A DNA stretch of 34,186 bases from a virus: the IMG/VR virus record IMGVR_UViG_3300036670_000069, positions 1 through 34,186 of that record; one strand, written 5' to 3'. Shown in pieces: positions 903 through 3,579 of this stretch. Made by a program: the position numbers and the translations under genes. A model generated the notes under the pieces. It did not search any database. It saw only the letters and a list, made by a program, of their open reading frames with translations, and was not told the origin of the DNA. Each line of letters opens with the position of its first letter. The stretch's first letter is position 1.

Positions 903-1346
903 ATGGCTTATTCTAAAGAAGATAAAGAAAGTCTATTCTCTCTAATCCTATTGGAAATAGAGAATGGTTTTGCTATTACTAATATTTGCAATAGAGATGG
1001 TATGCCTAGATTAGGCACTATTTATAATTGGTTAGATAGTGACGACGATATGAAAGAGGCTTATTTAAGAGCATCAAACGTTCGTTCCGAGAGAATATTC
1101 GAAGAAATACTTACTATAGCTGATAAACAAGATAAAGATGTTTATTTAGACAAAGATGGTAGAGAGGTCACAGACCATAATGTGGTTAATCGCTCAAGGC
1201 TACAAGTAGATACTAGAAAATGGATGCTTGGCAAGATGAACCCTAGAAAGTATGGAGAGAAGTTAGATGTTACATCTGACGGTGGTAAGGTTCAAGCTAT
1301 TCAGATAATCGGAATGAAAATAACCAACGATGAAACAGAAGACTAG
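903..1346 (+). CDS. terS: terminase small subunit
   Basis: A 147-aa protein, the usual size for a phage terminase small subunit, which recognises phage DNA and loads the large subunit for packaging. The N-terminal part (residues about 22-45, with GTIYNWL) looks like a helix-turn-helix. The stretch RLQVDTRKWMLGKMNPRKYG (about 99-118) is the pattern seen in many TerS proteins of this type. The next gene, terL, overlaps it by 17 nt in another frame, which supports the assignment and suggests translational coupling. The start is preceded by an AT-rich stretch without a clear Shine-Dalgarno sequence, as expected in Bacteroidota. Confidence 0.88.
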   Translation: MAYSKEDKESLFSLILLEIENGFAITNICNRDGMPRLGTIYNWLDSDDDMKEAYLRASNVRSERIFEEILTIADKQDKDVYLDKDGREVTDHNVVNRSRLQVDTRKWMLGKMNPRKYGEKLDVTSDGGKVQAIQIIGMKITNDETED

Positions 1347-3579
1347 CGAAATAACATTAAACGTTAGAGGTAATATAAAGCAACTGCAAGCAGTTAAGTA
1401 TTGGGTAGATAAAACTACCATCGATATAGCATACGGTGGCAGCAAGGGGTGTGCTGTTAGAGGTACAAAAGTTCTTACCGATAACGGATACAAAGAAATA
1501 CAGGATTTTAAAATAGGAGACACAGTTGCTTCGTTTAATGCTCTTGGATTTCTTGAATATAAAAATGTTATAGATGTTAAAAAGTTTCCTCTATCTAGTA
1601 CCTCCGAATACAATAAATTGATTACATTTGTAATGAAAGATAAAACAAGTCTTTCTTTAACACCTAATCACGAAATTTATTATGAAGGAGAATGGATACC
1701 AGCAGGAGGGTTTGCTAAAAGAGTCTTGGATTGTTATTCAAGGGACAAATGGGGCTTACGAAATATCATCGAAGGGAAGGGTGTTATCGAACAAGATGTA
1801 TGGACAAACGAACAAACGTATTTTGATACCTTCGACGACAAAGAAGGGTTATTTGAGAGTCTGCCTAAGTTCGGTAAAAAAGAGTGTATTGGTACACCAA
1901 TTGGTTGCTATTCATTTCTTAACAAATCCTCAGAACAAAGAGACGGTAAATCATATAGATTTCGACAGGGGCAACAACTCGGTAGAAAACTTGGAATGGT
2001 TGACAATAAAGGAGAATGTACATCACTCAAAAGAAAGATGTCCTCAGTTGTTCGGAGACAAGAGAGGAGAAAAAGGAACTACGACAATACTCAACAACGA
2101 GAAAGTCTTAGAGATAAGAGCCAAGTTCAGCCCCAGAGTGGTGACGAGGGAAATGTTAGGCAAAGAGTATGGTGTGGCAGCGGCAACGATAAAAGACATA
2201 GTTCTGCGCAAGAGTTGGACTCACATTTAATAAGTGAGATTAGATTTGAATTAGTTAAGGATAGTGTGTTTGATTTGACTGTGGCTGACAATCATAATTA
2301 CATAGTTACAGAGTCAAATATAATAGTTCATAATTCTGGCAAGAGTTTTTTAGGATGTTCTTTGATATGCGCAGATGCGCTAATGTACGCGGGAACGCAT
2401 TACTTCATTGCAAGGAAGACTTTGACAGACCTTCGTAAGTTTACAATTCCTTCGGTTCACGAGATATTAGATATGTGGGGTATTGGTTCGGAGTATTATA
2501 AGTACAACGGTCAAGATAACTTTTTCTTATTTCATAATGGTTCTAAGATATTTTTAATAGATGCGAAGTATCAGCCTAGCGACCCTCAGTATATGAGGTT
2601 TGGTTCGATGCAGATGACAAGGGGATGGATAGAAGAAGCTGGGGAGTTCGAACTAGAGTGCAAGAACAACTTACAAGCATCAATAGGCAGGTGGAAGAAT
2701 AAAGAATACAACCTTACACCGAAGTTACTTCAAACTTGTAATCCATCCAAAAACTATTTGTATAAGGATTATTACAAGCCTAGCTTGGACGGGACTATAC
2801 CTGAGTTTAAGAAGTTTGTTCAAGCTCTCCCTAGCGACAATAAGACGTTACCTAGTGATTACATACCTAACTTACTTAAAATACTTAGCCACAACGAAAT
2901 TCAAAGGCTTGTATATGGGAATTGGGAGTTTGATGATAATCCTTATGCGTTGTTTGATTATGCTAACATTCTTGGACTGTACACGAATGAATTTATAAAG
3001 CCTACTCAAGAGCGATACCTTACTTGCGACATTGCTTATACAGGTTCGGATAAGTTTGTACTTACAGTTTGGGCGGGCATGGTTGCGGTTAAAATAATAG
3101 CGATTGACAAGATAGATGATACGATGGTCTCTAAGAAGATAAATGAAGTAAGGATAGAGAATAGAGTTCCATTGAAGAATGTGATATATGATGCGGATGG
3201 ATTACAGACGTTTACTAGAGCATCATCAAAGCAAGGGATATTATCTGGAGCGATTCCATTCAATAATAATGGCACTCCTATAAAGATGCATGGTAAGACA
3301 GAAAACTTTAAGAACTTAAAGGCACAATGTTATTACTACTTCGCTGAGGCTTGTAAGGATTCAGCGTTATATATTCAAGAGAATAAATACAGAAGTCAGA
3401 TAATAGAAGAGTTGGAGCAGATAAACATTAAACCTCTAGGGGATGATGGTAAGATTTCATTAGAGAAGAAAGATGCGATAAAAGAGCGAATAGGGAGGAG
3501 TCCTGATTTTGCGGATTCGCTAATGATGCGATTCTACTTCGAATTAAAGAACAAAAAGAAAATAAGTATAATGTGGTAA
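1330..3579 (+). CDS. terL: terminase large subunit with intein
   Basis: A 749-aa precursor of the packaging motor. An intein of 295 residues (C41-N335) interrupts the Walker A motif; joining the flanks restores GGSKGSGKS. The spliced protein would be 454 aa, normal for TerL. Walker B is GWIEE (about 432-436), with E435/E436 as catalytic glutamate. The coupling motif TCNPS is at about 469-473. The C-terminal RNase H-fold nuclease shows D567 (LTCDIAY), D621 (IYDADG) and D726/D729 (SPDFADS). The ATPase pumps DNA into the capsid and the nuclease cuts it. Without splicing the ATPase site would be broken, so activity depends on the intein. A separate HNH gene lies inside the intein in another frame. 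Confidence 0.95.
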   Translation: MKQKTSEITLNVRGNIKQLQAVKYWVDKTTIDIAYGGSKGCAVRGTKVLTDNGYKEIQDFKIGDTVASFNALGFLEYKNVIDVKKFPLSSTSEYNKLITFVMKDKTSLSLTPNHEIYYEGEWIPAGGFAKRVLDCYSRDKWGLRNIIEGKGVIEQDVWTNEQTYFDTFDDKEGLFESLPKFGKKECIGTPIGCYSFLNKSSEQRDGKSYRFRQGQQLGRKLGMVDNKGECTSLKRKMSSVVRRQERRKRNYDNTQQRESLRDKSQVQPQSGDEGNVRQRVWCGSGNDKRHSSAQELDSHLISEIRFELVKDSVFDLTVADNHNYIVTESNIIVHNSGKSFLGCSLICADALMYAGTHYFIARKTLTDLRKFTIPSVHEILDMWGIGSEYYKYNGQDNFFLFHNGSKIFLIDAKYQPSDPQYMRFGSMQMTRGWIEEAGEFELECKNNLQASIGRWKNKEYNLTPKLLQTCNPSKNYLYKDYYKPSLDGTIPEFKKFVQALPSDNKTLPSDYIPNLLKILSHNEIQRLVYGNWEFDDNPYALFDYANILGLYTNEFIKPTQERYLTCDIAYTGSDKFVLTVWAGMVAVKIIAIDKIDDTMVSKKINEVRIENRVPLKNVIYDADGLQTFTRASSKQGILSGAIPFNNNGTPIKMHGKTENFKNLKAQCYYYFAEACKDSALYIQENKYRSQIIEELEQINIKPLGDDGKISLEKKDAIKERIGRSPDFADSLMMRFYFELKNKKKISIMW
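1450..2334 (+). other. intein in TerL Walker A motif
   Basis: Protein-splicing element of 295 residues within TerL. Block A starts at C41 (CAVRGTKVLTDNG). Block B has T111-P-N-H114 (LTPNHEIYYEGEW). Block F is VFDLTVADNHNYIV (313-326). Block G is NIIVHN ending at H334-N335, with S336 as the +1 extein nucleophile. All residues needed for class 1 splicing are present. The splicing domain consists only of about residues 41-130 and 300-335. The middle, about 131-300, is charged, Arg/Gln/Ser-rich sequence without recognisable fold; it is the out-of-frame reading of the HNH gene at 1682-2230. I infer a mini-intein that tolerates a long insert. Confidence 0.93.
1682..2230 (+). CDS. HNH homing endonuclease nested out of frame
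   Basis: A complete 182-aa HNH homing endonuclease read one frame away from the surrounding intein. A NUMOD4-type domain covers about 14-60 (ESWIVIQGTNGAYEISSKGR). The HNH_3-type nuclease follows, with VHQLVAIHF (H72), VNHID (N90, H91), NN (98-99), NLEWLT (N103) and H114/H115. A C-terminal HTH-type DNA-binding segment (about 137-180) ends in a TIKDIVLRKSW pattern typical of this family. It has its own ATG and stop. The ATG falls in intein block B and the stop falls just before block F. The role expected from the family is to cut intein-free terL alleles so that the intein is copied into them. Expression may be by internal initiation; no Shine-Dalgarno sequence is evident. Confidence 0.92.
   Translation: MKENGYQQEGLLKESWIVIQGTNGAYEISSKGRVLSNKMYGQTNKRILIPSTTKKGYLRVCLSSVKKSVLVHQLVAIHFLTNPQNKETVNHIDFDRGNNSVENLEWLTIKENVHHSKERCPQLFGDKRGEKGTTTILNNEKVLEIRAKFSPRVVTREMLGKEYGVAAATIKDIVLRKSWTHI

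Follow-up and report, generated by a model that had tools for sequence, protein, structure and literature searches.

The window analysed here, which is the whole 34,186-bp stretch of IMG/VR virus record IMGVR_UViG_3300036670_000069, carries a terL gene with an intein inside it, and within the intein lies a second gene that encodes a NUMOD4-HNH endonuclease in another reading frame. The terL frame is single and uninterrupted, has zero internal stops and encodes a 749-amino-acid (aa) terminase large subunit whose relatives occur in Flavobacterium phage 11b and further Bacteroidota phages. The intein splits the Walker A motif between GGSKG and SGKS, and the HNH gene sits between intein splicing blocks B and F. 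Domain matches, conserved catalytic residues and folds all support an intein with a complete out-of-frame HNH endonuclease, and so do the avoidance of stops, selection that differs between the frames and recurrence in relatives. The features are as follows.

1330-3579, + strand: terL with the intein inside (continuous open reading frame (ORF), TerL relatives)
1330-1449, + strand: N-extein, ending in residues GGSKG of the Walker A motif (GGSKGSGKS uninterrupted in intein-less relatives)
1450-2334, + strand: intein of 295 residues, Cys1 to His294-Asn295, followed by Ser+1 (motif models, conservation, Hint fold)
1450-1737, + strand: N-terminal ordered part of the Hint domain, residues 1-96, with block B Thr71-His74 at 1660-1671 (pLDDT, conservation)
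1738-2202, + strand: intein-frame linker, residues 97-251, without stops, predicted to be disordered (pLDDT 25-35)
2203-2334, + strand: C-terminal part of the Hint domain, residues 252-295, with block F Asp275 and block G His-Asn (motif models, conservation, pLDDT)
2335-3579, + strand: C-extein, beginning with SGKS (TerL relatives)
1682-2230, + strand: nested NUMOD4-HNH endonuclease gene, 182 aa, +1 frame, ATG start, TAA at 2228-2230 (domain matches, I-HmuI-like sequence and fold)
1682-1737, + strand: stretch apparently used in both frames, intein strand and helix plus HNH N-terminus (predicted structure, few substitutions)
1721-1870, + strand: NUMOD4 motif, nested-protein residues 14-63 (Pfam)
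1889-2020, + strand: HNH_3 domain, nested-protein residues 70-113, with H72, N90, H91, N99 and N103 invariant (Pfam, alignment)
2096-2203, + strand: helical, helix-turn-helix (HTH)-like C-terminal part, nested-protein residues 139-174 (model helices, conserved columns)

A reading made earlier from the letters alone (the sequence-only reading) had described a terL frame open throughout, with splicing blocks A, B, F and G intact, and a full +1 NUMOD4-HNH gene with its own ATG and stop. Both descriptions were borne out. TIGR01443 (intein_Cterm) matched the TerL frame at 1.6e-6, above its cut-off, and C1, block-B H74, block-F D275, H294 and N295 are invariant across 22 inteins. The AlphaFold model of the intein frame had pLDDT values mostly of 70-88 at residues 1-96, dropping to ~55 at residues 91-96. 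When the ordered intein ends were searched with Foldseek, the matches were inteins (Hint fold; best E 7e-5). With its insertion in a conserved motif that is empty in relatives, its catalytic residues and its modelled Hint fold, the element belongs among the inteins and would be expected to splice.

The nested ORF matched Pfam NUMOD4 (7.8e-11) and HNH_3 (2e-7), both above the gathering thresholds, and PADLOC HEase at 3e-21. Its AlphaFold model had a pLDDT of 82, and the best match in the Protein Data Bank (PDB) was I-HmuI (1u3e). The protein thus has the domains and conserved catalytic residues of a NUMOD4-HNH homing endonuclease, by which it would be expected to cleave DNA and to home, and its C-terminal helices may bind DNA as an HTH. 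NUMOD4-HNH genes are often located in group I introns, I-HmuI being one example. Like I-HmuI, the window nuclease joins NUMOD4 to HNH in the same fold, but I-HmuI is encoded by a group I intron and the window nuclease is nested in an intein.

A Flavobacterium contig from a metagenome-assembled genome (MAG; L178) has a nested HNH that is 75% identical to that of the window, which suggests a flavobacterial host for the window virus. The DNA directly 5' of the HNH start (1658-1681, TTAACACCTAATCACGAAAT.TAT) is near-identical in nine relatives (aligned positions of L002-L009), synonymous sites included, despite strong divergence nearby. This conserved stretch may be an initiation signal.

Constraint on the two overlapping frames

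We recoded the HNH gene at random with synonymous codons in 4000 trials and counted stops in the intein frame. The recoded genes had a mean of 10-20 intein-frame stops each, and zero stops were obtained in 0 of the 4000 trials. The natural nested sequences of close relatives had no intein-frame stop in 9 of 9 cases. Free-standing genes served as a natural control: seven free-standing HNH relatives had 14-22 stops in the equivalent offset frame, and 51 free-standing NUMOD4-HNH genes had 13-33 (median 20), counted over the last 150 codons. Stop avoidance is confined to the intein-borne copies. A chance ORF is ruled out by the random recoding and the free-standing controls. Moreover, every indel in the overlap among the relatives is a multiple of three.

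Omega values, which are simple substitution counts between close pairs with no codon model, differed sharply between the frames. In the overlap core omega was ~0.14 in the HNH frame versus ~3 in the intein frame, the latter being expected when selection sees the other frame alone. Outside the overlap it was 0.35 and 0.06 at the intein ends and 0.07 in the C-extein. The HNH frame is under purifying selection, and the intein frame over most of the overlap is merely kept open. Over most of the overlap the intein-frame residues are thus unselected, and only freedom from stops is maintained.

The sequence-only reading had also found the intein frame without recognisable fold across the overlap. This is right for residues 97-251, for which disorder is predicted, but not for the first ~19 codons (1682-1737), which form a predicted strand and helix. 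Given the disorder and the omega pattern, most of the overlap would be a linker that needs only to lack stops, and the ~19 codons at its start appear to be required in both frames; with few substitutions in 1682-1737 to count, dual-frame selection there is no more than suggested. Linker hydropathy was that of random stop-free recodings, with no selection for extra hydrophilicity beyond stop avoidance across 14 loci (mean z -0.05). Therefore off-by-one reading alone produces a hydrophilic linker.

Families of nested inteins in phages

The arrangement is not isolated, and at least three families of it were found. Eight further virus-collection contigs (L002-L009) and the Flavobacterium MAG contig contain the intein of the window together with its out-of-frame HNH. 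In no relative did compensating indels set the HNH in frame, and in no nested relative did the HNH frame contain stops. A profile search with the HNH family found the same nesting at Walker A in widely divergent TerL proteins. In all, this P-loop family comprised 31 independent or partly independent loci, every one in the +1 frame (22 distinct at 95% identity and 11 at 60%). Six long ORFs were read in case an HNH of these families sat in frame, and none was an in-frame intein.

A second HNH family is nested in the +2 frame, in inteins at other, more C-terminal TerL sites. Its 46 loci, all +2, consist of 44 of the 57 loci from one query (L347-L403) plus two from other scans, and 36 are distinct at 95%. 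Among its non-nested relatives, the intein C-terminal motif of a possible split-intein form was seen in L377 alone, at a contig edge. The TerL genes of L192 (which shares a contig with L111) and L201 both contain a pair of inteins with an out-of-frame HNH apiece, in +1 in the Walker A intein and in +2 in the C-terminal intein.

The third family has a Vsr-like nuclease (Pfam DUF559/MTES_1575) in the +1 frame, within a helicase intein at the DE/CHH box. Sequenced isolates with this nesting include Corynebacterium phage phi673, Vibrio phage CP-T1, Vibrio 24, Pseudomonas phage MR14 and other Vibrio isolates. There were 40 matching phage records, and the helicase frame was open across the nuclease gene in all nine regions fetched (L184, L404-L411). 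The deposited records of these nine annotate just a helicase or a hypothetical protein. With nested-intein genes annotated as helicase or terminase alone, annotation overlooks the nuclease.

At 44 further loci, 322 intein-frame stops were expected in total and 0 were observed, although ten of these loci, GC-richer or codon-biased, are individually weak (P of zero >0.01). Among the Vibrio isolates, omega in the overlap was 0.07-0.13 in the nested frame versus 2.5-2.9 in the host frame, and 0.06-0.19 in the host frame outside the overlap. A Shine-Dalgarno-like motif was found at half of 30 nested starts of the second and third families, compared with 9% of background ATGs, a contrast whose significance is optimistic because the nested loci are related. 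The overlapping design of intein and nuclease is widespread in phages and seems to have had at least three separate origins.

Some candidates were rejected. In the intein of Lactococcus phage 949 nrdD there was no same-strand nested ORF of at least 80 aa. Of eight HNHs standing free in annotated phages, one was fused to an annotated dUTPase frame and the others were simply genes next door.

Mobility, mechanism and rival explanations

Empty and filled sites occur in closely related genes: several intein-bearing exteins are 94-96% identical at the DNA level to intein-less ones. Between L002 and L005 the N-extein DNA is 98% identical and the C-extein 90%, whereas the inteins are only 62-69% identical, and therefore the intein was replaced horizontally. 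Such exchange between near-identical exteins is as predicted for homing, by which these inteins would spread.

The element is very probably a mobile one made of a splicing mini-intein and an independently started, out-of-frame homing endonuclease. Translation of the terL frame would give a precursor from which the Hint domain (blocks A, B, F and G) would excise itself in cis, restoring TerL, and the middle of the precursor would be a disposable disordered linker. From the internal ATG on the same message, +1-frame translation would yield a separate NUMOD4-HNH endonuclease. This enzyme would cleave terL alleles that lack the intein, at the Walker A codons or close by, and repair would copy the intein with its nested gene into the cut allele. 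Several points weigh against this proposal. Splicing, internal initiation and translation of the HNH, cleavage and its site, and homing are steps that we infer from knowledge of the families and from sequence patterns. Matches to intein_Nterm (TIGR01445) and Pfam Intein_splicing (9e-7) fell just under their own cut-offs, and the P-loop loci are mostly short metagenomic contigs. The HNH start in the window is also without a clear Shine-Dalgarno motif. Shine-Dalgarno motifs are rarely used by Bacteroidota.

Instead, ribosomes translating the terL frame might shift by +1 to produce the nuclease. Since the HNH frame is already open from 1661, 21 bases ahead of the ATG, an intein-N/HNH fusion would be possible. 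We consider this improbable, as every close relative keeps an ATG to within a few codons and Shine-Dalgarno-like motifs stand at many nested starts of the other families. In some nested frames no overlap-compatible shift site was recognised, although this was not a systematic test. That a group I intron rather than an intein bears the HNH gene has next to no probability, for all that such introns are a frequent home of these genes: Rfam had 0 matches in 1200-2600 even at E = 1, the terL frame is open throughout, and the intein residues are invariant. Equally hard to credit, and refuted by the relatives, is an artefact or relic in which two compensating errors or indels displaced an ordinary in-frame HNH. 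Nothing in its favour was found among the sequences compared, and the same +1 offset recurs in 31 loci, the nested-frame omega is ~0.14, and similar nesting exists in cultured, completely sequenced phages.

A role of the HNH in DNA packaging rather than homing, as with the terminase-associated HNH proteins of HK97-type phages, is very unlikely. HNH genes adjacent to those of terminase are known to belong to the packaging machinery (PMC12613952, citing Kala et al. 2014), and the free-standing HNH relatives of the nested gene also adjoin terL. Against such a role, NUMOD4 with an I-HmuI-like fold is of the homing type, near-identical terL genes lack the HNH, and the inteins shift between terL backgrounds.

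Comparison with known elements and origin

Like canonical bifunctional inteins, the window element has splicing blocks, an insertion at a conserved active site, an endonuclease between blocks B and F, and signs of mobility. In canonical inteins, however, the endonuclease is an in-frame LAGLIDADG or HNH domain, whereas here it is a separate protein in another frame and the in-frame middle is predicted to be disordered. Fractured genes are described as split inteins whose two halves are separated by a free-standing endonuclease gene. They resemble the window element in that, within phage genes, a nuclease gene that has a start of its own lies between the halves of an intein, but the host gene is broken there and terL here is one 749-codon frame across the nuclease gene. 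A split-intein fractured gene, uvsW of Salmonella phage S16 (L183), lies at the same DE/CHH box as the nested helicase inteins. In it, the ends of the nuclease gene overlap both intein halves.

Besides the two known intein layouts, with the endonuclease as an in-frame domain or as a gene between split halves, overlapping genes in different frames make a third, which occurs in dozens of phages, some of them cultured. Among published cases the closest lies outside inteins: in the ShiLan element (PMC11855218), a methylase gene of a mycobacteriophage contains an HNH read out of frame. That element lacks any detectable splicing domain and is believed to persist as a protein loop. Like it, the window element has a complete out-of-frame HNH, adds no stop to the host gene, is disjunctly distributed and has a host-frame product predicted to be disordered; unlike it, intact intein motifs and a Hint fold flank the overlap, and both the host gene and the HNH type are different. 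No intein with an out-of-frame nuclease was found in the literature searched, though Gorbalenya 1998, Gosselin et al. 2025 bioRxiv (non-canonical inteins) and Dassa et al. 2009 may hold a mention.

A broader reading, to which we give somewhat less than an even chance, is that inteins with out-of-frame endonucleases form a major class among the mobile elements of phages, one that was invented repeatedly, with at least three nuclease families, two frames and several sites. The hydrophilic linker would come free and leave splicing undisturbed, and overlap with an essential gene would weed out indels by which the nuclease could decay. A single nonsense mutation within the linker would convert a nested intein into a split intein flanking a free-standing nuclease; on this hypothesis nested inteins stand just one such mutation short of fractured genes and could be their missing ancestor. 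They would offer a concrete and testable route both for the entry of endonucleases into inteins and for the origin of split inteins. They also supply a natural collection of overlapping sequences with one frame under no constraint other than to lack stops, along with small inteins in which long disordered inserts are evidently tolerated.

A tree built from 72 HNH proteins placed the 21 nested copies, without exception, in a single group (support 94/95) along with five free-standing HNHs directly upstream of intein-less terL. The closest outgroups are again free-standing HNHs adjoining terL. The tree leaves the direction between nested and free-standing forms undecided. Read most simply, a mini-intein at the Walker A site of terL captured a free-standing HNH that targets this site. 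At L082-L088, L098 and L100, free-standing HNH relatives lie immediately 5' of intein-less terL, and where read the HNH end overlaps or abuts the terL frame.

Several terL genes beside free-standing HNH genes have a short insert with in-frame stops exactly at the Walker A codons. The terL frame is disrupted precisely there in the outgroup loci L105, L108, L114 and L115. The inserts lie at the following positions; two of the loci are single contigs, and L105 and L108 are possibly assembly errors.

L115, 2192-2270; L271, 3015-3090; L272, 657-730: 10-bp hairpin with a TTAATT loop and Ala codons on either side
L114, 3585-3660: longer hairpin between matching ATA codons
L286, 2952-2990: insert CGA-TGA-CGA
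L108, 3601-3640: insert GGT-TAG-GT
L105, 3600-3640: frame disrupted at the Walker A codons

These inserts may shield terL from the HNH, and they resemble the translational bypass of T4 gene 60 (PMC5009743).
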